DNA from: Chryseobacterium gleum
GTDB taxonomy: Bacteria; Bacteroidota; Bacteroidia; Flavobacteriales; Schleiferiaceae
Length of the DNA stretch: 48,061 nt
NCBI GenBank assembly: GCA_945883565.1
Contig: CAMCXO010000022.1
Span: forward strand, 1 to 48,061
Reading direction: 5' to 3'
The stretch's first letter is position 1; the number at the start of each line of letters is the position of its first letter. Made by a program: the position numbers and the translations under genes. The notes under the pieces were generated by a model, which saw nothing but the letters and a program-made list of their open reading frames with translations, did not search any database and was not told where the DNA came from. Shown here in pieces: positions 38,799 through 48,061 of this stretch.

Positions 38799-41117
38799 AT
38801 GAAATCCGTTCTTCGCCGCCTTTTGTTTTTTGCGTTAGGTGGCCTTTTAGCCTTGGCCTTGCTTTTTGTTTACGCCTTTGTAAAGCGCGACGCTTTATTA
38901 AAAGCCATTTTAGCCCAATGGAATGAAGAACTTAACATACAAGTTAAAACCGAACGCATTGGTCTCGAGTTTTCAGCCTTCCCTCAGTTAACCGTTACCC
39001 TTCAACCTTTTTTTGTAGCCTCGGCCTTTAATGCCGAAGATACCCTCTTGTATGCCTCGGTTGTAAAAGCCAAAGTGCCCCTATTGGCTTGGCTAAAGTC
39101 GAACTACACCATTAAGTCTATCAGCGCTGAACAAGGCGTGGTTCATATAAAATACGATCTTAACGGCAAAGCCAACTTCGAGCTTTTGCCTAAATCCACT
39201 AAGCCTTCTCCCATAATAAATCTGCAAAATTTAGAACTTCAAAATTTTGTTTTCAGCTATACCAATCCTTTAAATAAGCAATTTGTAAAAGGAAACCTAT
39301 CGAGCCTCAACCTCAAAGGCCAGGTGGTTTCGATGGAAGATTTAAGCGTAACCACTGAAGCCAAGATTTGGGCGCTAAATTTTGATGGAAATACATTAAA
39401 AGACTTACCTATTAAAAGCAAGGCCCATTACTATAAAGAACTTTGGGAAATTTGGGTACAAAGCTCTGGAATGTTCGAAGCCGAATATGTTCAAAAGCCC
39501 AAGGGCTCTCATTTAACTGCAACGATTTTTAAGGTAGAAAGGCTTTTAAACCAGCCAATAGCGGCCAAAATTCTGAAGCCTCATCTTAAACACGCCAAAG
39601 GCGCTTTGGATGTAAAACTCGTAATAGATGAAAACCTAAATGAACTGGAGGGCGAAGTAAACTGTAAAGAATTAATACTAGAACTAGATAAACAGCAGCC
39701 GTTTAAGGCCATGGGCCGAATACAATTTCATAAATTAAAGAAAGATATACAATTAACTTTCAACCAATTCACCCTTGAACAAAGCGGCAATTCCGCCATT
39801 TGTACGGGTCAGTATTTGTACCAAAAGCTGCCCGAGTTAAACCTTCAGGCCGAAATTCAAATAAAGAACTGGGCCTTTCTCCAAACGAACTTCCCCGATT
39901 TAGATTTCCAGATAACCAAAGGTGAAGCATTTGCCGAGGTTCAATACAACGGTCCCGTTCAAAAAGCCTCTGATTTTAAAAATGCCAAAGTGGTTTTGGA
40001 TGTCAAAGGTTTGGATATTGCCGGGCATACCCGAATTACCGATTTAAACGGAAGATGCCTATGGCAAAACAAGCGAGTAGACTTAGAAAACATTCTCGCT
40101 AAAGTGGACAATCACGAAATGTTTGTACAAGGCTATGGCGATTTCAACGGACCAAAACCCGATTGGAACCTCAAGATTCGTTCTTCAACTTTATCGTTCT
40201 TCCAAACCCCATCCGCATCGGCTTCGCCAAACTCAAGACTTTTGAGCATCCCACCCCTCAACGCCCATGTGATATTTGAAGTAGATGCCTTAAAACTGGG
40301 TAAGATGGTTTGGGAAGAAGTGCGTTTTGCTGCCGATTTGCAGGAAGGAAATTTAAAAGTTGAACGGTTTTTTGGCAGGGCTTTTGGCGGAAACATTTCC
40401 GGAAGCGCATCGCTAAACGCAAATTTGGAAGGATTTGATATGCAAGTACACGCAGAACTTCAAAACATTGGCATGAAGGCCATGATGAAGGGCTTCGAAA
40501 ATTTTGGGCAAAACACTTTGGTACACGAACAACTTGAAGGACAACTAAGCGGCAAATTGGAAGTTAAGGGGATGGTTACGCCTCAAGGAGCACTCAGCTT
40601 AAGTTCGCTTTACGCGAAAGCCGATTGTTTATTAGAAAACGGTCGCTTAATCCGATTTTCACCTTTGCAAAGTTTATCGGCGGTAGCCGATGAAAAAGCC
40701 CTTAACGATTTAAGGTTAGAAAAACACCACCAGGTTATTGAAATAGCCCATAATAAATTGATTATTCCGAGCACCCAGATTAAAACCAATGCCTTCGAAA
40801 TGCTTATAGAAGGCGAACACGGGTTCGATTCGTATATCGACTATCGGGTGGTGATGCCGATTCAAGATTTAATCACCAAAAAACGAAAGCGAAGCCATGA
40901 ATTTGATGCTTGGTTGGTTGAAGCCCAAACCCGAAAACGCCCCAATTTGCATATTCAAATAAAGGGTTCGATGGATGCCCCACAAATTGAACTCGATAAA
41001 ACAGGGCTCAAAGAATCGCTTAGGCAAGAATGGAAAGAGCAGTTCAAAAAAGAAGAGAAAAGAGATTCCATTAAACGCCCGGCTTTTGAATATGAATGGG
41101 AAGAAGATGGCGGATAG
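38799..41117 (+). CDS. AsmA-like outer-membrane biogenesis protein
   Basis: A 772-residue protein with one N-terminal membrane segment (about 8-28: LLFFALGGLLALALLFVYAF). A long periplasmic beta-rich region follows, with a C-terminal domain containing IDYRVVMPIQDL, which resembles AsmA C-terminal domains. AsmA-like proteins are thought to form lipid-transport bridges. A charged 50-residue tail (REEKRDSIKR-type) is unusual. A bidirectional terminator follows. Confidence 0.8.
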   Translation: MKSVLRRLLFFALGGLLALALLFVYAFVKRDALLKAILAQWNEELNIQVKTERIGLEFSAFPQLTVTLQPFFVASAFNAEDTLLYASVVKAKVPLLAWLKSNYTIKSISAEQGVVHIKYDLNGKANFELLPKSTKPSPIINLQNLELQNFVFSYTNPLNKQFVKGNLSSLNLKGQVVSMEDLSVTTEAKIWALNFDGNTLKDLPIKSKAHYYKELWEIWVQSSGMFEAEYVQKPKGSHLTATIFKVERLLNQPIAAKILKPHLKHAKGALDVKLVIDENLNELEGEVNCKELILELDKQQPFKAMGRIQFHKLKKDIQLTFNQFTLEQSGNSAICTGQYLYQKLPELNLQAEIQIKNWAFLQTNFPDLDFQITKGEAFAEVQYNGPVQKASDFKNAKVVLDVKGLDIAGHTRITDLNGRCLWQNKRVDLENILAKVDNHEMFVQGYGDFNGPKPDWNLKIRSSTLSFFQTPSASASPNSRLLSIPPLNAHVIFEVDALKLGKMVWEEVRFAADLQEGNLKVERFFGRAFGGNISGSASLNANLEGFDMQVHAELQNIGMKAMMKGFENFGQNTLVHEQLEGQLSGKLEVKGMVTPQGALSLSSLYAKADCLLENGRLIRFSPLQSLSAVADEKALNDLRLEKHHQVIEIAHNKLIIPSTQIKTNAFEMLIEGEHGFDSYIDYRVVMPIQDLITKKRKRSHEFDAWLVEAQTRKRPNLHIQIKGSMDAPQIELDKTGLKESLRQEWKEQFKKEEKRDSIKRPAFEYEWEEDGG

Positions 41118-41122
41118 TTAAA

Positions 41123-41152
41123 TAAAAAAAGCGCCTTAATGGGCGCTTTTCA
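41123..41152. terminator. Bidirectional terminator between the AsmA-like gene and the DEAD-box helicase
   Basis: AAAAGCGCC / GGCGCTTTT arms with a short TTAATG loop. A-run and T-run flank both sides, so it can serve both convergent genes. Confidence 0.85.
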
Positions 41153-41163
41153 TTTAGAAAATA

Positions 41164-42606
41164 TCAGCGTTTTACCTCCCAACGCTTAGGTTGACGAGGC
41201 TTTTTAGACCATTTTTCGGCAAAAGGCAATTTCCCTTTGGCCGGTGGAACTTCTTTTTTGTTGTCGCGGGGTTTGGCGGCAAAGTTGTCGTTTAAATCGC
41301 GGCCGCTCGACACTTTAATTTTTTCCATTTCGTGGGCCAACACTTTAGCCAACAGCTCCTCTTTGCTCAAAGCCGAAAAAAGCACCTCGGTTTGTTCCAT
41401 CAATTCGGGTGCTACTTTGCCTTTGGTTTTTTGTTCCAATAAGGTTTTGCACCATTTCTCGATACGCAAAGAAGTAATGTCTTCGGCCTTTGGAACCAAT
41501 ACTTTGGCGAAATTGATGCCTAAAGTGCGTTCAATCCTTTGAATGAGGTATCGGTCGCTTTTGCGAACAAACGCGATGGAAACCCCCTTCTTCCCTGCCC
41601 TTGCGGTACGTCCGCTGCGGTGGGTATAGTAGGCCAAATCATCGGGCAAACTAAAGTGAAACACATGGGTAAGATCTTGAACATCTATTCCCCTTGCGGC
41701 CACATCGGTGGCGATTAACACCTGTAAATCGTGTTTTTTGAAAATGCGCATTACCCTATCGCGCTGGGCTTGAGAAAGGTCGCCATGCAAAGCGTCGGCC
41801 CTGTAGCCGTGCGAGATGAGCTTTTCAGACAAATCTTGCGTATCGCGCTTGGTTCTGCAAAACACAATGCCGCGCATATCAGGATGAAGTTCCAAAAAGC
41901 GCATTAAGGCTTCGGGCTTATCCGGAACGTTTACCTCGGCATATTGGTGCTCGATGTTGGTATTTACCACTTCACCCGATTTGGCCTTGGCCTGAACCGG
42001 ATTGTCCATGTACCGCTTTACAATACTGCGGATGTTATCGGGCATAGTGGCCGAAAACAACCAAGTGTTTTTGTCTTCAGGGGTATGTTGAAGAATGTTT
42101 TCCAGTTCGTCCTGAAAGCCCATATCGAGCATTACATCGGCCTCGTCTAAAACCAAAGTTTTTACTTGATTAAGCTTAATGGCTTTTCGGTCGAGCAAGT
42201 CGATAAGACGGCCGGGCGTGGCAATAATAATGTGTTGCGGTGCGGAGCGAAGGGCGTTTATTTGGTTCATGATGTTTGCCCCTCCATAAACAGCCAAAAC
42301 GTTTATTTTAGGCAAGAACTTACTGAAAAGCTCGAGTTGCGAAGCAATTTGCTGTCCCAATTCGCGGGTAGGCGCCAGAACCAAAGCCTGGGTAGCCGCT
42401 AAAGTTGGGTTTAAATTTTCGAGCAGTGGCAATCCAAATGCGGCCGTTTTTCCGGTTCCGGTTTGAGCTAAGCCAATAAAATCGCTGCTGCCATCGAGCA
42501 ACAAAGGAATGGCTTGTTGTTGAATTTCGGTTGGGCTTTCAAAGCCTAAGTCGCTGAGAGCTTTCAGTATAGGTTCTGACAGCCCCAATTGTTTAAATAA
42601 AACCAA
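41164..42606 (-). CDS. deaD: DEAD-box ATP-dependent RNA helicase
   Basis: A 480-residue RNA helicase. The Q motif region (FESPTEIQQQAIP) is at 22-34. Motif I is AQTGTGKT (47-54), motif II DEAD (154-157), motif III is SAT (LFSATMP) and the C-terminal helicase domain has ATDVAARGID and HRSGRTARAGK. A basic C-terminal tail (about 430-480) may bind RNA. The start is TTG (42606); no ATG is near the family start MxFKQLGLSE. The gene symbol is chosen by similarity; csdA/deaD or rhlE-like naming cannot be separated here. Confidence 0.92.
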   Translation of the reverse strand: MVLFKQLGLSEPILKALSDLGFESPTEIQQQAIPLLLDGSSDFIGLAQTGTGKTAAFGLPLLENLNPTLAATQALVLAPTRELGQQIASQLELFSKFLPKINVLAVYGGANIMNQINALRSAPQHIIIATPGRLIDLLDRKAIKLNQVKTLVLDEADVMLDMGFQDELENILQHTPEDKNTWLFSATMPDNIRSIVKRYMDNPVQAKAKSGEVVNTNIEHQYAEVNVPDKPEALMRFLELHPDMRGIVFCRTKRDTQDLSEKLISHGYRADALHGDLSQAQRDRVMRIFKKHDLQVLIATDVAARGIDVQDLTHVFHFSLPDDLAYYTHRSGRTARAGKKGVSIAFVRKSDRYLIQRIERTLGINFAKVLVPKAEDITSLRIEKWCKTLLEQKTKGKVAPELMEQTEVLFSALSKEELLAKVLAHEMEKIKVSSGRDLNDNFAAKPRDNKKEVPPAKGKLPFAEKWSKKPRQPKRWEVKR

Positions 42607-42690
42607 GAAGTTGGTGGGTTTAAAATGAGCCGCAAAGGTCGGCTAAATAATTGAATTTCAATGTTAAAAATTAATTACCGCCAAAACGGC

Positions 42691-42885
42691 TCAACCAATA
42701 AGGCCTTTGGCAATTAAATAAGGCACAATTAGCCAAAGCAAGCCCTTCACCAAAAAGAACATAAACAAACCCAAGGCCACTTTCCAACCTGCTTTTTGAA
42801 CCAAACCTTTAAAGCCTTCCTCTTTCAATACCTTCTTATAAGCTTTAAAACCTCGAATATGGGCCGGGGCAGCGCTTGGTTGCAT
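42691..42885 (-). CDS. Small hypothetical membrane protein
   Basis: A 64-residue frame with an ATG at 42885. The first half is basic (AYKKVLKEEGFKGLVQKAG), and the second is a membrane segment (about 37-60: GLFMFFLVKGLLWLIVPYLI). I know no named family. A strong promoter with a 20-base spacer lies directly upstream, which supports it as a real gene. It is transcribed away from the mechanosensitive-channel gene. Confidence 0.65.
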   Translation of the reverse strand: MQPSAAPAHIRGFKAYKKVLKEEGFKGLVQKAGWKVALGLFMFFLVKGLLWLIVPYLIAKGLIG

Positions 42886-42904
42886 TGTTTAGAATGATTT
42901 TAAA

Positions 42905-42936
42905 CAAAAGTATAACCCAAAGACATTCTGGCCAAA
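42905..42936 (-). promoter_or_regulatory. Bacteroidota-type promoter of the small membrane protein
   Basis: On the minus strand: TTTG, a 20-base spacer, then TACTTTTG. Both boxes match the consensus exactly. The -7 box ends about 19 bases before the ATG at 42885. Confidence 0.7.
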
Positions 42937-42983
42937 ACCTCGGAGGCCAAAGGGTGTTAAATTTTTCTTTTCAGGCTTAGCCT

Positions 42984-42991
42984 TAGTTTTG
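42984..42991 (+). promoter_or_regulatory. Candidate -7 box (TAGTTTTG) of the mechanosensitive channel gene
   Basis: TAGTTTTG matches TAnnTTTG and ends 4 bases before the ATG at 42996, the same distance as in purM. No TTTG box is seen upstream at the normal spacing. Confidence 0.4.
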
Positions 42992-42995
42992 CAGC

Positions 42996-44282
42996 ATGTT
43001 AAATGAGTTACTTACCAGTTATAAAATTGGACATTGGGCACAAAACCTCGTAGAAAAATGGGAAATTTCTGAACCTTGGATGAACAGGGCCACCATTGCC
43101 CTCGATTTATTGCTTTTGCTCATCATTAGCCTTGTGGTAGACTGGATAGCGAGAAAAGCCATTATGTATGTGGTGCACCGCATAATTCGAAATACCAAAA
43201 ACGAATGGGACGATGTTTTTTATGAAAAGCGGGTTTTTAATGGACTGGCCCATATTCTTCCGGCCCTCATTATAGACTATTCGGCCGAATTAATACTGGC
43301 AGACTTCGAAAGCATACATACCATTATTTCGAAACTGGTGGCCATTTACATTATTGTGATTTTGGTGGCAGTGGTAAACAGAGTGCTCAAAGCCTTGCTT
43401 CACATAAGTCAGCAGTATAACTATTTTGAAGGCAAACCTGTGGTGAGTTTCATTCAGCTGTTTAGCATTGGCAATTATATGCTTGGCTTTATTCTGATTT
43501 TGGCCCATTTGGTTGGTCGTAATCCATTAACCTTTATAGGCGCCTTTGGAGCCAGTGCAGCCGTTTTGTTGCTCATTTTCCGCGATACGATTTTAGGGCT
43601 GGTAGCCAGTATTCAGGTTTCGATGAACGATATGGTTAGAATTGGCGACTGGATTAGCATGGATAAATACGGGGCTGACGGCGATGTAATAGAAATAAAC
43701 TTAACCACAGTGAAAGTGCGTAATTGGGACAAAACCATTACCACCGTTCCAACCTATGCGGTGGTGAGCGATTCGTTTAAAAACTGGAGGGGTATGCAGG
43801 CCATGGGTGTTAGACGAATAAAGCGCAGCCTTTTGATAGACCTTAAAACCATAAAGTTTGTAGACGATCGGCTTTTGGCAAAGCTTCAAAAGTACCAGCT
43901 TATTACCGAATATGTTAACGAAAGACAGACCGAAATAGAGTTGTATAACCTAAGTACCGGTGCCGACCGAAGCGAAATAATAAATGGAAGAAACATGACC
44001 AATGTGGGGGTGTTTAGGCAATACGCCATGAATTATCTCCTAAACCACCCCAAAGTGGCCCATGACGAAATATTAATGGTGAGGCATCTTCAACCAACTG
44101 AAACCGGTTTGCCTGTGGAGGTGTATTGTTTTAGCCGCGATATTGTTTGGGTGAACTACGAAAACATTCAAGCCGATATTTTCGATCATTTGTTGGCGGC
44201 CATGAAACATTTTGAACTGGAAATTTACCAGGCTCCAAGTGGGGCCGATTTTTCGCGAGCTCTGTCTAAACATGAGGCCTAA
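42996..44282 (+). CDS. MscS-family mechanosensitive ion channel (YbdG-like)
   Basis: A 428-residue inner-membrane channel. Five membrane segments are visible (about 30-50, 78-95, 105-130, 150-175 and 182-205), the last being the pore helix region GAFGASAAVLLLIFRDTILG, followed by the beta domain (SIQVSMNDMVRIGDWI). Size and layout match YbdG of E. coli, which responds to osmotic downshift. It is the last chromosomal-core gene before the accessory island on the right. Confidence 0.9.
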   Translation: MLNELLTSYKIGHWAQNLVEKWEISEPWMNRATIALDLLLLLIISLVVDWIARKAIMYVVHRIIRNTKNEWDDVFYEKRVFNGLAHILPALIIDYSAELILADFESIHTIISKLVAIYIIVILVAVVNRVLKALLHISQQYNYFEGKPVVSFIQLFSIGNYMLGFILILAHLVGRNPLTFIGAFGASAAVLLLIFRDTILGLVASIQVSMNDMVRIGDWISMDKYGADGDVIEINLTTVKVRNWDKTITTVPTYAVVSDSFKNWRGMQAMGVRRIKRSLLIDLKTIKFVDDRLLAKLQKYQLITEYVNERQTEIELYNLSTGADRSEIINGRNMTNVGVFRQYAMNYLLNHPKVAHDEILMVRHLQPTETGLPVEVYCFSRDIVWVNYENIQADIFDHLLAAMKHFELEIYQAPSGADFSRALSKHEA

Positions 44283-44422
44283 TGCTTTTTTAATCCAAAC
44301 ATTTAGATGCCCCCATCTGGGGTTTAATGGGTTCGTGAAATTCTTATCCTTGATTTATTCTTGTGGGCTGGGGTTTGCGCTGTAAATGCTTGGCGTCTAG
44401 AATTTATGTGTTTTCAAATGAC

Positions 44423-44809
44423 CTAATCAGGCGTCTGTGGGCTTTTTGTTTTAATTGCAGGTGCGTTTTGGCTGCTTACTCGTTTTACAGATATGTCAAA
44501 CGGTGTGATGATTAGCAGTCTGCCTTGTTCCAATGGCTTTTCAAATTCGGGTTCTAATTTTTCTTTAAGACCTCTTGCCAATGCCAAAATGTTGGGCTGT
44601 TTGCCTTTGAGCAGATAATGCAATACATCTTTTTCTATTTGACTGTGAAAACCACTGATAACACAAATGCCCTTTTCTCTTTGCTCTATTGCCCAGTCAT
44701 AGCATTTCAACACCACCGAAGCAGGAACTTGTCGGCTGCATAAAAAAGCTGTTTTGGGCAGCATCAGCAGTTCTTTGTTCCCTATTTGTTCTTTTATCTC
44801 CTGTAGCAT
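44423..44809 (-). CDS. DprA-like Rossmann-fold protein, C-terminus shortened
   Basis: The start is placed at ATG 44809 (MLQEIKEQIGNKELLMLPKT); a TTG 6 codons upstream also exists. The protein resembles the DprA/SMF Rossmann fold: KTAFLCSRQVPASVVLKCYD, then GICVISGFHSQIEKDVLHYL, then ILALARGL and LLIITPFD. It ends PAIKTKSPQTPD, whereas relatives I recall continue ~60 residues further, so the C-terminus is probably truncated. Such 'DNA-binding protein' genes are common in mobile and defence islands, with unknown role. Fragments of the same gene occur twice upstream. Confidence 0.6.
   Translation of the reverse strand: MLQEIKEQIGNKELLMLPKTAFLCSRQVPASVVLKCYDWAIEQREKGICVISGFHSQIEKDVLHYLLKGKQPNILALARGLKEKLEPEFEKPLEQGRLLIITPFDISVKRVSSQNAPAIKTKSPQTPD
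44680..44762 (-). repeat. Copy 1 of the DprA-like recombination stretch
   Basis: This part of the intact DprA-like gene encodes the AFLCSRQVPASVVLKCYDWA region. It shares 73 of 74 bases with copy 2 (46452-46525, aligned to 44689-44762) and 44 of 46 bases with copy 3 (47452-47497, aligned to 44680-44725). Confidence 0.8.
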
Positions 44810-44832
44810 CTTCTTCTTTATTTGCAATTATT

Positions 44833-44932
44833 ACTTGGACACAATGTCCAAGCTCTTGTCCAAGTTCATCTCTAAAAGAAACTTTAGTACCTATAACTTG
44901 GACACTTTGTCCAAGTTATTGTCCAAGTTCAT
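44833..44932 (-). repeat. 63-bp tandem repeat with two near-palindromes
   Basis: On the minus strand two copies of a unit that begins ATGAACTTGGACAA start 63 bases apart (44932 and 44869). Each contains a palindrome: CTTGGACA-CTT-TGTCCAAG (44897-44915, extendable to 11-bp arms with TAA/TTA at 44894-44918) and CTTGGACA-CAA-TGTCCAAG (44834-44852). The region lies between the stop of the deaminase fusion and the DprA-like start. A short open frame in it is interrupted by stops. It looks like a paired operator or a recombination remnant. Confidence 0.65.
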
Positions 44933-44936
44933 TATC

Positions 44937-46436
44937 TCATTCATTTACAGTGTATTTATAGTTAGGAGAGTTAGCATCTTCTCCATTATCCCGAATTAAA
45001 CCAAGCTCTTTCATAGCAACAAGATGTCTTTGAGCAGTTTTATATCCAATATCAAAATGAGCAGAATATTCTCTTGTACTAGCTTCATTAACACTTTTTA
45101 GCCATTCATAACCTCTTAGTTGAGCTTCATTCAATTTTGTAACATTTGGATGAATGCTCACTTTCTTAACAGCTTCCATTGTTTTAGGAAAAGTAAGTGT
45201 AAGCAGAGGCTCTTCATAAACATATTCTGGAAAAGGCAAACCATATTTTTCATTCAATGATTTTAGAGATGCCATGCCTAATCCAGTTTCCTCTATGTAT
45301 TCCATTTTGTTGAAAACAAGTGATATTACAGGGTTTCTGCTGTAAGAGGGAGCTTTGAAGGCATTCAATTGTTCTAAAGTAATAGTTGAAGGTGGGGCTC
45401 CTGGACTTTTAATTACAATTGAATCATCATCAATTTTAATAGTATTTTTTGAGCCTTCAATGGAGTAATCTCTGTGGACAATAGCATTAATGACAGCTTC
45501 ACGAAGAACACTTAATGGAAAAGCTTCCTTTTCTGATCTTTTAAATGATGATGTATCCTTTTCTTGAGCCAAAACTCTTTTCAACCAGTCTTGCACTAAA
45601 TCGGGTACTAAAACCAAAGCTTGGTCAAAACTCTCCGGTTTGAATTCATAATTGCCCAATTTTGCAGTGCACTTCAAGGCTGCTCCTTTAAACGCTAATC
45701 GTGGCTCCATACCAAATAGCAAAATGCCATAACCGTTGGGTTTAAAGGTGTTGGTTGTTTTATCCAAACTCAACACACCCATATCTATCAAATATTCTTT
45801 GAATTCGGGTTGCTCAATCTTATAAGGTAATTTTGCTTCATTAATAAATTTTTGAAGAGCCTCATCAGATAGTTTATCAAATGAAGCATTGGCAATTGGT
45901 TGCTCAATAGATGTGGTATAATCTTCTGTTTCGGCTTTACGCTTTCTTTCCAATGCCTGTTTTAAAAATGCTTTGTTCTCTGTTTCTATCTGCTTTTGCA
46001 GGTCACGGTCAAACATTCTCACTTCCACAAAGTGTCTTTTCAAATGCTCTATTCCTTTGGTAGAAACGGTTGGGTCTGGGTCAATAATTCCAACATAAAC
46101 TGTTTTAATTCTGGCATTGGTTGTTCTGCGGCAACAAGGTACTTTAGGCGGATTGCGTTCTACACAAGGTTCAAGGGTGGTAAATAGAACGCAATTATCT
46201 AATTTTTCATGTCCCAGCTTTCTTTCCAATAAGGTAAATTCTGCGTGGTCGCCTTCTCGTAATTCGCCACGGTGTGCTTGAATAACCTTTCCATCAGGAA
46301 AAACCACTACCGCCCCAACTTTGGGTGGCACTTTACCATCAGGCCTTGGCTCATTTTTACTCTTATTCATTTCAGCAATGGCCAATTCCATATAAGGTCT
46401 GGGGTTAAATATTTTATCTTCTTTCTTCTTTGCCAT
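44937..46436 (-). CDS. RibD-like deaminase fused to a RecG-like GHKL ATPase and winged helix
   Basis: A 499-residue three-part fusion. Residues 1-165 form a deaminase domain with PKVGAVVVFPDGKVI, the zinc-site HAE (64-66) and EPC...PCC (C91 and C101/C102, with the RibD-like 9-residue insertion). Residues 170-420 match the C-terminal part of AlbA_2/RecG-like ATP-binding proteins: the N-box REAVINAIVHRDYS (312-325), IDDDSIVIKSPGAPPS (335-350) and NPVISLVFNKMEYIEETGLG (368-387). Residues 430-499 are a winged helix. The target nucleotide or nucleic acid is unknown; a defence role is plausible from context only. Confidence 0.8.
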   Translation of the reverse strand: MAKKKEDKIFNPRPYMELAIAEMNKSKNEPRPDGKVPPKVGAVVVFPDGKVIQAHRGELREGDHAEFTLLERKLGHEKLDNCVLFTTLEPCVERNPPKVPCCRRTTNARIKTVYVGIIDPDPTVSTKGIEHLKRHFVEVRMFDRDLQKQIETENKAFLKQALERKRKAETEDYTTSIEQPIANASFDKLSDEALQKFINEAKLPYKIEQPEFKEYLIDMGVLSLDKTTNTFKPNGYGILLFGMEPRLAFKGAALKCTAKLGNYEFKPESFDQALVLVPDLVQDWLKRVLAQEKDTSSFKRSEKEAFPLSVLREAVINAIVHRDYSIEGSKNTIKIDDDSIVIKSPGAPPSTITLEQLNAFKAPSYSRNPVISLVFNKMEYIEETGLGMASLKSLNEKYGLPFPEYVYEEPLLTLTFPKTMEAVKKVSIHPNVTKLNEAQLRGYEWLKSVNEASTREYSAHFDIGYKTAQRHLVAMKELGLIRDNGEDANSPNYKYTVNE

Positions 46437-46563
46437 AGTTGTCTAATTTATTTGCCCAGTCATAGCATTTCAACACCACCGAAGTAGGAACTTGTCGGCT
46501 GCATAAAAAAGCTGTTTTGGGCAGCTTTATCAGGTCAGTATTGCCAAGGCTTTCTTTTATCAT
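46414..46563 (-). pseudogene. DprA-like gene, N-terminal fragment (copy 2)
   Basis: The ATG at 46563 overlaps the Fic stop by four bases. It encodes MIKESLGNTDLIKLPKT, then AFLCSRQVPTSVVLKCYDWA, then a short tail read out of frame into the start of the deaminase-fusion gene (49 residues in total). The last third of the DprA-like protein is missing. The first ~12 codons differ clearly from the intact gene, so this is a related gene and not a simple duplication. Confidence 0.7.
46452..46525 (-). repeat. Copy 2 of the DprA-like recombination stretch
   Basis: These 74 bases match copy 1 with one mismatch. The match ends abruptly on both sides: upstream the DprA-like codons are diverged, and downstream the sequence becomes the 5' end of the deaminase-fusion gene. 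Confidence 0.8.
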
Positions 46564-47438
46564 TCTTCGTAATAATAGGAGTAGTCAATGCCTTTCATAA
46601 ATAGTTCTCGGTCATTTATTTTACTGGTAAGTGCTTTGGCTATAAGTTGAGCCAAAACTGAATAATCAACAGTACTTATAATCATAGCATTCATGTAATT
46701 CTCTTTACTGATTTTACTCCAATCCACACATTTTTTCAGTTCTTTTTTTAGTATCAAATCCAGCCAAACCCTGGTGCTTCTACCATTGCCCTCCATAAAG
46801 GGATGTGCCTTGTTCATAGCTGCATACTTTTGAATAATTTCATCAAAAATTTTTTGTGGCATAACATCTATTTGTTGCAACGTACTTTTTAAGTGCTGGG
46901 CATATACAAACTGATAGCCTCCTTTTGAAATGCTTTTTTCCCTGATTTGCCCTGCAAAATCATATAAGCCTCCAAACAGATAAGCGTGTATTTGTTGTAA
47001 ACCCTTGGTTGTGCCTACTTCAAATTCGTTTATCAAATTGCTTTCAAAAAGGGTATAGGCTTTCTTCTTGCTTTGCCCGTCTATACTGGTATCGCTGTAT
47101 AAAAACCAATCCAAAAACTTAGTTGCTTTGTTGTTGGGGAAATTTTTGGATAGCTCAATAATTCCCTCGCTATCCAACATATCAGTTTTGTATTTTTTGC
47201 CGTCAGCCGCAGTAAGTTTCAGTTGGGTAGTGGCACTAACCAACTCACTATTTTCCTTTTTCAGTTTGGCTTTCAGATATTTCCAATAGTTGCGGGTTTT
47301 GGCGTAGTCGGGTTCTTCGTTTAGCACACCTACAATATCCAACACGCTAAACCACCACTTGGAATGTTCGTCATCCCAAACGGCACGGACTTCTCGGTCG
47401 TTAAAAAAGCGTATGGATATTTTTAGCCGCTCCTTCAT
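46560..47438 (-). CDS. Bro-N domain / Fic domain fusion protein
   Basis: A 292-residue protein. Residues 1-120 resemble the Bro-N/KilA-like region of phage anti-repressors and RhuM-type proteins: VRAVWDDEHSKWWFSVLDIV and DMLDSEGIIELSKNFPN. Residues 125-290 are a Fic domain with the active-site motif HPFMEGNGRSTR (212-223) and the typical upstream helix LQQIHAYLFGGLYDFAG. Fic proteins transfer AMP or other nucleotide parts to targets. The (S/T)xxxE(G/N) inhibitory helix is not obvious, and no separate antitoxin gene lies nearby. Bro-N/Fic fusions are often found in mobile islands. Confidence 0.85.
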   Translation of the reverse strand: MKERLKISIRFFNDREVRAVWDDEHSKWWFSVLDIVGVLNEEPDYAKTRNYWKYLKAKLKKENSELVSATTQLKLTAADGKKYKTDMLDSEGIIELSKNFPNNKATKFLDWFLYSDTSIDGQSKKKAYTLFESNLINEFEVGTTKGLQQIHAYLFGGLYDFAGQIREKSISKGGYQFVYAQHLKSTLQQIDVMPQKIFDEIIQKYAAMNKAHPFMEGNGRSTRVWLDLILKKELKKCVDWSKISKENYMNAMIISTVDYSVLAQLIAKALTSKINDRELFMKGIDYSYYYEE

Positions 47439-47439
47439 T

Positions 47440-47497
47440 TTTTGTTTTCTATTTGCTCTATTGCCCAGTCATAGCATTTCAATGCCACCGAAGCAGG
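47440..47497 (-). pseudogene. DprA-like gene, internal fragment (copy 3)
   Basis: The minus strand encodes PASVALKCYDWAIEQIENKK followed by a stop that overlaps the ATG of the Fic gene. Only the central DprA-like stretch remains; the N-terminal codons are missing and the sequence upstream is the broken PLD-type gene. The 46-base core (47452-47497) shows two mismatches to copy 1. Confidence 0.7.
47452..47497 (-). repeat. Copy 3 of the DprA-like recombination stretch
   Basis: 44 of 46 bases match copy 1 (44680-44725), with two differences (AATGCC for AACACC). Homology begins exactly where the PLD-type gene breaks off. Confidence 0.75.
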
Positions 47498-47923
47498 TGT
47501 AACGCAAATGCAATTTCACAACTACTTTCTTGTCCTTCATTTGTTGGCTCAACTTCCGCAATGCTTTTTCGTCTGCTTCGGTGTGCCAATTGTCAACTGG
47601 TCTTTAAACTCTTGTGCAAGTCGTTTTTTAAGTTTTACTGCTTCGGCTTGGTCGATGATGTGGTCATCGTCTTTTGAAAAGTAGTCACGTAAAATGTCTA
47701 TTGGCATTTTTTGCATACCAACAAGCAGTCGGCAAATGCGGTGAACATCGTCCTTGCCTTCAACAACAGTCGCACCCGATAAGCTGTCGATTTTGTCTGC
47801 AACTTCTTTCCAACCTCTCAGGTTAAAATACCCCACACAAAAGTCTGTCCGCTGTGATAGTTCAAGCGTTTCATTCAGTCCTTTGGTCAAGTGATTCTCT
47901 ATATTATCATAAATCTTTGGCAT
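47469..47923 (-). pseudogene. PLD-type / helicase-associated protein, N-terminal part, frameshifted and truncated
   Basis: The ATG at 47923 opens a 124-residue frame (47549-47923) with NIENHLTKGLNETLELSQRT, then DFCVGYFNLRGWKEVADKID and a run ending AEAVKLKKRLAQEFKDQLT. From memory this resembles the start of large phospholipase-D-like, helicase-linked defence proteins. After the LTIG codons the frame shifts: the next frame reads TEADEKALRKLSQQMKDKKV before the sequence meets copy 3 of the DprA-like stretch at 47497. The PLD HxK motif, expected further along, is missing. It is therefore a remnant. Confidence 0.55.
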
Positions 47924-48061
47924 TGTCTCACAATATAATTTTAGTAGGTTAAAATAAAGAAAATAACCCTGTCAATTTTACTCGTTACTGTATTTGTGCG
48001 TTGTCGAAAAAATAGCTCTTTGGCTTTTGCCGAAGGTTTGGCTTGTGCGGTGGGGGCAAAA

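Follow-up and report, generated by a model that had tools for sequence, protein, structure and literature searches.

Truncated DprA-like gene copies beside cargo genes in a Chryseobacterium gleum contig suggest stepwise cargo uptake by a decayed restriction-modification-like operon

The window analyzed here is a 48,061-nucleotide contig assigned to Chryseobacterium gleum (CAMCXO010000022.1), near one end of which a piece of a short DprA-like gene occurs three times, separated by a fic gene and a gene for a deaminase fusion protein. By sequence comparison, this array appears to be the worn remnant of a mobile restriction-modification-like operon that consists of a PLD/SNF2 helicase gene, a gene for an Eco57I/type IIG-like enzyme, and the DprA-like gene, and that occurs in several phyla. 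The junction between the Eco57I-like and DprA-like genes is a cargo slot. We consider it probable that the slot of the decayed operon took up cargo at least twice, through a homology anchor in the DprA-like gene combined with an illegitimate join upstream, and that truncated DprA-like copies were left behind as scars. An earlier interpretation made from the letters alone, here called the sequence-only reading, had described a stepwise cassette array; the decayed operon and the apparently mosaic nature of the final DprA-like gene were absent from it.

Results

Truncated DprA-like copies precede cargo genes in five loci

On the minus strand of the window, a helicase fragment is followed by copy 3, fic, copy 2, the deaminase fusion, a palindromic spacer, and the DprA-like gene with copy 1 (Table 1). 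The three copies share one orientation, and the identities reported in the sequence-only reading were reproduced: copies 1 and 2 agree at 73 of 74 positions in the best ungapped 74-mer, and copies 1 and 3 agree at 44 of 46 in the best 46-mer. The 30 bases 5' of the 74-mer agree at just 18 of 30 between copies 1 and 2. In the window, a search for a 36-base core pattern that tolerated at most 3 mismatches gave three hits, against a mean of 0.00 in 100 shuffles; the three repeats are not a chance product. When the window's own genome was searched with the core, three strong matches were returned, all of them in the window, and the next match had an E value of 0.18.

We compared 85 loci with a DprA-like gene, namely, the window, 69 loci from a scan of genome contigs, and 15 from further genomes. 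All were selected via this gene, their contigs often end within the operon, and gene calls are simple open reading frame (ORF) picks. L129 and L130 coincide with L017 and L027, as do L113 and L118 with L071 and L079, and none was counted twice. Codon numbers refer throughout to the 153-amino-acid (aa) DprA-like gene of L018. A scar followed by cargo and then by a DprA-like gene was found in 5 of the 85 loci screened: the window, L021, L017, L027, and L108. The two scars of the window end at codon 37 (copy 2) and codon 42 (copy 3). The L021 scar comprises codons 1 to 42 and precedes fic; the L017 scar comprises codons 1 to 27 and precedes a deaminase gene; the L027 scar, with a frameshift, comprises codons 1 to about 33 and precedes DarTG; and the L108 scar comprises codons 1 to 35, followed by TAG and then a deaminase gene, in a locus where the helicase and Eco57I-like genes are intact. 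Except for window copy 3, the start of which is lost, all scars open at a normal start codon that overlaps or abuts the preceding stop. From scar to cargo start, the distance varies by locus, from about 6 to 23 bases and about 45 in L027.

Junctions are shared between loci. The window and L021 have the fic join at the identical position, and between the window and L108 the deaminase join differs by no more than two codons. Given that L021 has the fic junction without the deaminase, and L017 and L108 have the deaminase without fic, stepwise gene entry at the DprA-like gene with partial copies left behind, as the sequence-only reading had proposed, is very likely. That reading had also considered that the core might be confined elsewhere to intact genes, and partial copies were found in four other genomes. 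The shorter scar of L017 may reflect a later small deletion, because its deaminase protein is 93% identical to that of the window.

Scars resemble foreign genes, and the final DprA-like gene appears mosaic

Each scar was ranked against all 85 DprA-like genes, i.e., the copy of its own genome and 84 foreign ones. The own copy was beaten by 29 of 84 foreign genes for the L027 scar (64 matches versus 89 for the best foreign gene, of 99), by 17 of 84 for L017 (60 versus 77 of 81), by 14 of 84 for L108 (81 versus 100 of 105), by 7 of 84 for window copy 2 (96 versus 104 of 111), and by 4 of 84 for L021 (114 versus 120 of 126). Window copy 3 was uninformative (1 of 84; 50 versus 51 of 54). By this measure, L017, L027, and L108 show a clear preference for foreign over own genes, and the preference in L021 is modest. 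Had the scars arisen by local tandem duplication, they should match the neighboring copy best; as the five testable scars fit some foreign genes better, this origin is disfavored, least clearly in the case of L021. Window copies 1 and 2 are nearly identical, but we do not infer that gene conversion links them: copy 1 is almost as similar to L018, with 58 of 60 positions shared over codons 18 to 37, compared with 59 of 60 shared with copy 2.

The final DprA-like gene is apparently mosaic in the window, L017, and L108, where codons 1 to about 17 are of a deaminase-linked type and the rest looks like that of another lineage. As a measure, we used third-position identity to the L018-type group over codons 1 to 17, 18 to 105, and 106 to 153. 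The values were.44/.81/.54 for the window (the last covering 20 codons),.37/.82/.70 for L017, and.41/.77/.48 for L108. The outgroups gave.52/.63/.47 (L031),.36/.46/.46 (L033),.18/.53/.36 (L046),.48/.55/.40 (L029), and.53/.54/.44 (L039). Fisher P values, for contrasts picked after the values had been seen, were 0.0009 for the window, 0.0002 for L017, and 0.0004 for L108, compared with 0.31 for L031, 0.87 for L033, and 0.02 for L046 among the outgroups. The 3' end is L018-like in L017 and not in L108, and codons 106 to 153 versus 1 to 105 differ between the two (P = 1.7e-5). Furthermore, the 3' end of the gene is swapped or lost near codons 106 to 115 in several loci (L108:12255-12719; L034; window 44423-44480), and this region seems to form a second recombination-prone edge.

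The window and L108 are about 80% alike in the scar and 79 to 91% alike over the deaminase C-terminus, the spacer, and the DprA-like gene to codon ~105. The deaminase body, at 32 to 70%, is less alike than these arms. Taken together, the scar ranking, the mosaic pattern, and the greater likeness of arms than of cargo argue for homologous exchange within the conserved stretch, with differing 5' parts and cargo carried along. The mosaic gene of the window, L017, and L108 supports a homologous crossover on one side indirectly, through contrasts picked after the values were seen.

The junction between the Eco57I-like and DprA-like genes is a cargo slot

The Eco57I-like protein has a conserved C-terminal tail (FTHEELDFIINYDIKYRMGKEL...), which is encoded upstream of the DprA-like gene and on the same strand in 51 of the 85 loci. 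The gap between tail and DprA-like gene in these 51 loci is at most 60 bases in 10, 73 to 146 bases in 2, and more than 250 bases in 39, and the slot ranges in size from 0 to 6.4 kb. The sequence-only reading had allowed for an ancient gene order conserved without size changes, which this range contradicts. No forward gene could be named in two of the 39 filled slots (L019 and L062). A neighboring junction is steadier: in a control of 20 loci read by hand, with both genes long enough and with L021, L037, L069, and L082 dropped as collapsed, more than 250 bases were present in the slot in 15 of 20 loci, compared with 5 of 20 at the helicase/Eco57I-like junction. Nested cargo in restriction operons as such is not new, having already been described (see Discussion).

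Cargo was grouped by similarity in the tail-bearing loci and seven hand-added loci, including the window, and selected members only were scanned with profiles. Among the groups are Bro-N/Fic (13 proteins from 12 loci), AlbA_2/HATPase_c_4 (8 proteins), and a GIY-YIG-type group of 4 that stems from hand-added loci; RhuM and YhcG/DUF1016 are represented by two proteins each, Y1-transposase-like ORFs number three, and there are also singletons. The types among the scanned occupants include Gabija, DarTG, Fic, RhuM, and Schlafen-type. Gabija occupies the L046 slot (GajA, 5.8e-170; GajB, 1.1e-127) and DarTG that of L027, while the PADLOC candidates PDC-S05 and PDC-S13 were matched in L030 and L048, respectively; a PADLOC scan of the L110 and L060 slot proteins gave no match. 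Pfam assigned a helix-turn-helix domain and an IrrE-type peptidase in L036, PIN in L065, RhuM in L030, AlbA_2 plus HATPase_c_4 in L035, YhcG and a Y1 transposase in L055, and Fic in L112.

The insertion zone extends into the tail of the upstream Eco57I-like gene. Pieces of this tail (36 to 87 bases at 80 to 86% identity) are repeated beside cargo in L036, L045, L055, L057, and L082. Duplications therefore arise at both edges of the slot, those of the Eco57I tail mirroring the DprA-like scars. Such tail repeats lie next to cargo ORFs or at their 3' ends (L055:6454-8302; L045:2520-4038; L036; L057; L082), as if cargo had entered the tail and adopted its final codons. Three Y1-transposase-like slot ORFs also end in an Eco57I-type tail (L055:6564-7274, L057:9157-9927, and L069:3380-4150); that of L055 has a Pfam Y1_Tnp match, and the L057 and L069 members were assigned by similarity.

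The host operon is intact in relatives and scattered among bacteria

We read the array as an operon remnant because homology to the helicase stops near codon 140 and runs into copy 3 and because the operon is intact in relatives. The window retains just the helicase fragment and the DprA-like gene; the Eco57I-like gene is gone. In Thermaurantimonas aggregans (L020), a member of the same family, the intact operon has a helicase of 1150 aa, a DprA-like gene of 153 aa, and, in the middle, a 274-aa gene that resembles the KilA-N gene of L108 and a 1136-aa gene with an Eco57I-type tail. The L108 operon shows PLDc_2 plus SNF2/Helicase_C, KilA-N, and Eco57I/MmeI methylase by Pfam, and its Eco57I-like protein matches PADLOC REase_MTase_IIG (PDLC03628) nearly over its full length (1.7e-274), making the host operon recognizable there as restriction-modification by both databases. 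The PLD/SNF2 helicase is apparently the first gene of the ancestral operon, and its intact relative in L086/L020 matches PADLOC C3a139 HKD+Snf2 (4.5e-51). L021 parallels the window in that the restriction core is lost and the cargo kept: a deletion at L021:8389-8989 has collapsed the helicase and Eco57I-like genes, so that the start of the former is joined to the C-terminal part of the latter.

The DprA-like gene is rare and scattered. Among family genomes, the DNA core matched 3 of 88, with strong matches in the own genome and G060 and a 24-base match in G067. The protein was compared with 395 genomes at each of three levels, the own genome being counted every time, and it matched 2 in the order, 12 in the class, and 17 in the phylum; searches of the 98 genomes in the order of G528 and of the 9 in its family added nothing new. 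The 69 loci of the contig scan are mostly Bacteroidota by label, the others being Planctomycetes/Brocadia, delta-proteobacterial, Ignavibacteria/Chlorobiota, and a few other metagenome-assembled genomes (MAGs), although MAG labels may mislead. At an E value of 1e-5, the protein matched 0 of 72,556 plasmid records and 0 of 50,697 phage records. IMG/VR holds two loci with the gene, L106 and L107, at about 50% identity. Its neighbors in L106 are tail-type genes, with a dUTPase-like ORF next to it, and the ORF list includes no Eco57I-like gene (names assigned by eye).

An AlphaFold2 model of the L018 protein is a single domain with a predicted local distance difference test (pLDDT) score of 94.8. 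The top Foldseek matches were ShosA and the DprA proteins of Helicobacter, Streptococcus, and Rhodopseudomonas, with 15 to 20% sequence identity in the top 14. The model thus predicts a DprA Rossmann-type fold, as in the DprA/SLOG superfamily, in a protein that falls below the Pfam cutoff (26.7 versus 29.6 bits). The window gene matched PF02481 at just E 0.0075 and PADLOC PsyrA at 5.4e-9. The gene's frequent position after the Eco57I-like gene suggests that the short DprA-like protein belongs to the restriction operon and not to one particular cargo.

Genes and borders of the window

The gene identities given in the sequence-only reading were confirmed: the Fic protein also carries a Bro-N domain, the deaminase fusion joins a dCMP/APOBEC-type deaminase to HATPase_c_4, and the remaining gene is DprA-like (Table 1). 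This DprA-like gene had been called almost complete; its 3' end is in fact cut, and it matches residues 2 to 115 of the L018 protein. The gene described as a broken PLD-type gene is indeed broken, and it is identified here as the beginning of a PLD/SNF2 helicase, with homology that abuts copy 3.

Table 1. Features of the array in the window, in minus-strand order after the border stretch
Feature	Position	Strand	Evidence or remark
Piece of a repeated stretch bordering the operon upstream, truncated at contig end	48015..48061	.	Matches L021 border stretch
PLD/SNF2 helicase fragment (~140 of ~1150 codons)	47499..47923	-	tblastn with L108 helicase; ORF ends 47549
Copy 3, DprA-like codons ~26-42	47445..47497	-	fic join placed as in L021
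fic with Bro-N domain, cargo 1, 292 aa	46560..47438	-	Pfam Fic 1e-12, Bro-N 1.6e-6; PADLOC candidate PDC-S04 7.4e-159
Copy 2, DprA-like codons 1-37	46453..46563 (repeat at 46452-46561)	-	Start codon overlaps fic stop (ATGA)
Deaminase + HATPase_c_4 fusion, cargo 2, 499 aa	44937..46436	-	Pfam dCMP_cyt_deam_1 3.7e-11, Inv-AAD 1.9e-11, HATPase_c_4 6.2e-16
Deaminase/DprA-like intergenic spacer containing two palindromes TTGGACA...TGTCCAA	44829..44932	-	DNA fold z = -5.83
DprA-like gene, 3'-truncated, apparently mosaic, holding copy 1 (44689-44798)	44423..44827	-	Codons 1 to ~17 of deaminase-linked type, then L018 type

The window Fic protein contains HPFMEGNGR, which we take to be the Fic motif, and the C-terminus of the deaminase fusion has a weak helix-turn-helix match (Pfam HTH_5, E 0.26). 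The spacer palindromes, resembled in L017 and L108 and recognizable in L031, could possibly serve as an operator. An Rfam scan of window positions 40000 to 48061 gave no match at gathering scores.

Upstream of the operon lies a repeated border stretch, inside which the window contig ends, 138 bases beyond the helicase start. Related stretches occur upstream of the helicase at L021:8018-8500 and L020:1771-2230, and parts of the 441-base L021 stretch are matched nine times in the genome of the window, the window included. Direct repeats also surround the whole module in L017 (7495-7727 and 10520-10753, 235 bp at 91%) and in L054 (6324-6831 and 10531-10978), where the 3' part of an upstream gene, glycosyltransferase-looking by eye, is duplicated. 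We do not rely on such whole-module repeats (L017, L020, L023, and L054) as target duplications. The L020 repeat has a third copy elsewhere in the genome, part of the L017 repeat also recurs elsewhere in its genome, and the L023 repeat adjoins an ORF that looks by eye like a transposase.

Discussion

We propose that the incoming DNA had the form of a cargo gene plus a DprA-like gene or its 5' end. Pairing most likely took place with the conserved stretch (codons ~18 to 105) of the resident DprA-like gene and would have given a homologous crossover on the right-hand side. The left end would have been joined illegitimately inside the resident gene, at codons 27 to 42, stranding the resident 5' end as a scar ahead of the cargo. 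In the window, fic would have been the first insertion and the deaminase the second, after which the two existing copies could act as homology arms for gain, loss, or swap of cassettes. The Eco57I-like gene, the bulk of the helicase, and the beginning of copy 3 may have gone in a later deletion, and the 3' end of the last DprA-like gene would also have been lost. What the sequences display directly are the scars, a shared junction, the mosaic pattern, and the occupancy of the slot; from these we infer the two-sided mechanism, the sequence of insertions, and any role of the DprA-like protein.

Several observations weigh against this scenario. In L021, the own copy matches the scar almost as well as the best foreign gene does. 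The 3' end of the L108 gene is also foreign, so that a second exchange is needed, and in L027 the entire downstream DprA-like gene differs. Conservation is also highest in the middle of the gene, and one outgroup, L046, partly shows the contrast on which the mosaic pattern is based. L026 contains a degenerate DprA-like copy with an internal deletion that is sited downstream. DprA-like scars were found in only five genomes, among loci picked via that gene, and where the slot exceeds 250 bases, a duplicated piece of either slot edge is present in 8 of 39 loci; insertion that leaves no visible scar is therefore commoner than visibly scarred insertion. Direct repeats are common in general, with 84 pairs off the slot edges and 20 touching them in 655 kb compared, and some of these 20 are not gene pieces but repeats close to the gene. 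Finally, the comparison of close strains for empty and occupied sites that the sequence-only reading had envisaged yielded no pair differing by one cassette at one place. In searches with the L017 and L020 borders, 0 of 15 and 1 of 86 genomes other than the query genome matched, the latter over 84 bases, and in four congeners the MscS neighbor lies amid other genes, where an empty site is not definable.

Complete cargo-plus-DprA-like units could instead have been added in tandem by homologous single crossovers in the DprA-like gene from a circular or concatemeric donor, the upstream copies losing their 3' ends afterwards. The frameshift and stop in the L027 and L108 scars, the internal deletion in the L026 copy, and the apparent exchange of arms between lineages fit this reading. 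However, none of the 85 screened loci has two complete copies flanking cargo, and random decay is unlikely to have produced the recurring fic join (window and L021) and a deaminase join within two codons (window and L108) unless these were inherited. We regard tandem stacking followed by decay as unlikely.

As in ShosTA/PsyrTA, the DprA-like protein might also act as each cargo's antitoxin or partner, in which case the array would consist of toxin-antitoxin-like pairs with decayed partners. Consistent with this, ShosA ranks first among the fold matches (Foldseek E 8.1e-9), the L086 protein matches PADLOC PsyrA (4.5e-11), and 22 of the 64 loci that have a gene upstream show the DprA-like start overlapping the preceding stop by 4 or 1 bases (gap of -4 or -1). 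Yet the gene directly follows the Eco57I-like tail, at 60 bases or less, in 10 of 51 loci, and elsewhere it trails unrelated cargo that has its own partner (DarTG and Gabija), making functional pairing improbable.

A recombinase that recognizes the 46- to 74-base core in integron fashion is very improbable, and the dedicated acquisition site suggested in the sequence-only reading is not upheld: the core is strongly conserved and scar ends lie within about 45 bases, but the left ends differ (codon 27 in L017, ~33 in L027, 35/37 in L108 and window copy 2, and 42 in copy 3 and L021) instead of sharing one crossover point, the right-hand mosaic join lies near codon 17, away from the scar end, coding sequence accounts for the conservation, and no recombinase or integrase was recognized in the ORF lists of the scar loci (by eye, with no profile scan).

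We thus favor uptake of cargo through one homologous and one illegitimate join. DprA proteins interact with RecA in competent bacteria. It is conceivable, as a long shot, that across phyla the short DprA-like gene is a recombinase-free, integron-like platform, with its conserved middle serving as a homology arm for the stacking and swapping of anti-phage cassettes, and that the protein favors pairing of incoming DNA with its own gene.

Defense genes nested in restriction operons now guide the discovery of anti-phage systems, and their entry route is seldom visible. The scars, the mosaic anchor gene, and a junction common to unrelated bacteria make this route testable. In addition, the slot, with the Eco57I tail on one side and the DprA-like start on the other, provides a search handle for candidate defense genes, and several scanned occupants match uncharacterized PADLOC candidates (PDC-S04, PDC-S05, and PDC-S13).

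Our literature search returned no description of DprA-like scars or of a slot in the helicase/Eco57I-like/DprA-like operon, a weak negative, as subscription papers and bioRxiv were mostly outside its scope; the main text of PMC12839542 has 0 occurrences of DprA. Related arrangements are known. The fold predicted for the DprA-like protein agrees with that of the ShosTA/PsyrTA DprA-like antitoxins and of bacterial DprA, whereas the protein is only ~153 aa long, has one domain, and shares 15 to 20% identity with them. The match of the L108 Eco57I-like protein to REase_MTase_IIG likens the operon to type IIG restriction-modification, but the enzyme is joined here to a PLD/SNF2 helicase and a DprA-like gene, and its own gene is gone from the window. 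Homology-facilitated illegitimate recombination was proposed in PMC5361080 as the mechanism behind the Vibrio cholerae arrays of type VI immunity genes; PMC3240628, cited beside that mechanism, concerns coli conjugation. According to PMC5361080, the type VI effector-immunity arrays and orphan Rhs regions likewise have successive modules at one place, a shared anchor, and a retained broken piece of the displaced gene. They differ in that the anchor here is the DprA-like gene of a restriction-type operon, that the cargo consists of anti-phage and toxin-antitoxin-type genes, and that the right-hand exchange inside the anchor is apparently visible as a mosaic gene. The presence of defense genes inside restriction operons is established, according to PMC12255303 and PMC12629846, both of which cite a 2024 preprint by Payne et al. 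The cases in PMC12255303, where DarTG2 is located between hsdS and hsdR, share with ours unrelated genes at a preferred operon junction and DarTG as cargo; unlike them, the host here is a helicase, type IIG-like, and DprA-like operon, and scars at the junction hint at the entry route. Gene nesting itself is therefore of a known kind, and it is the route of entry that is unusually visible here.

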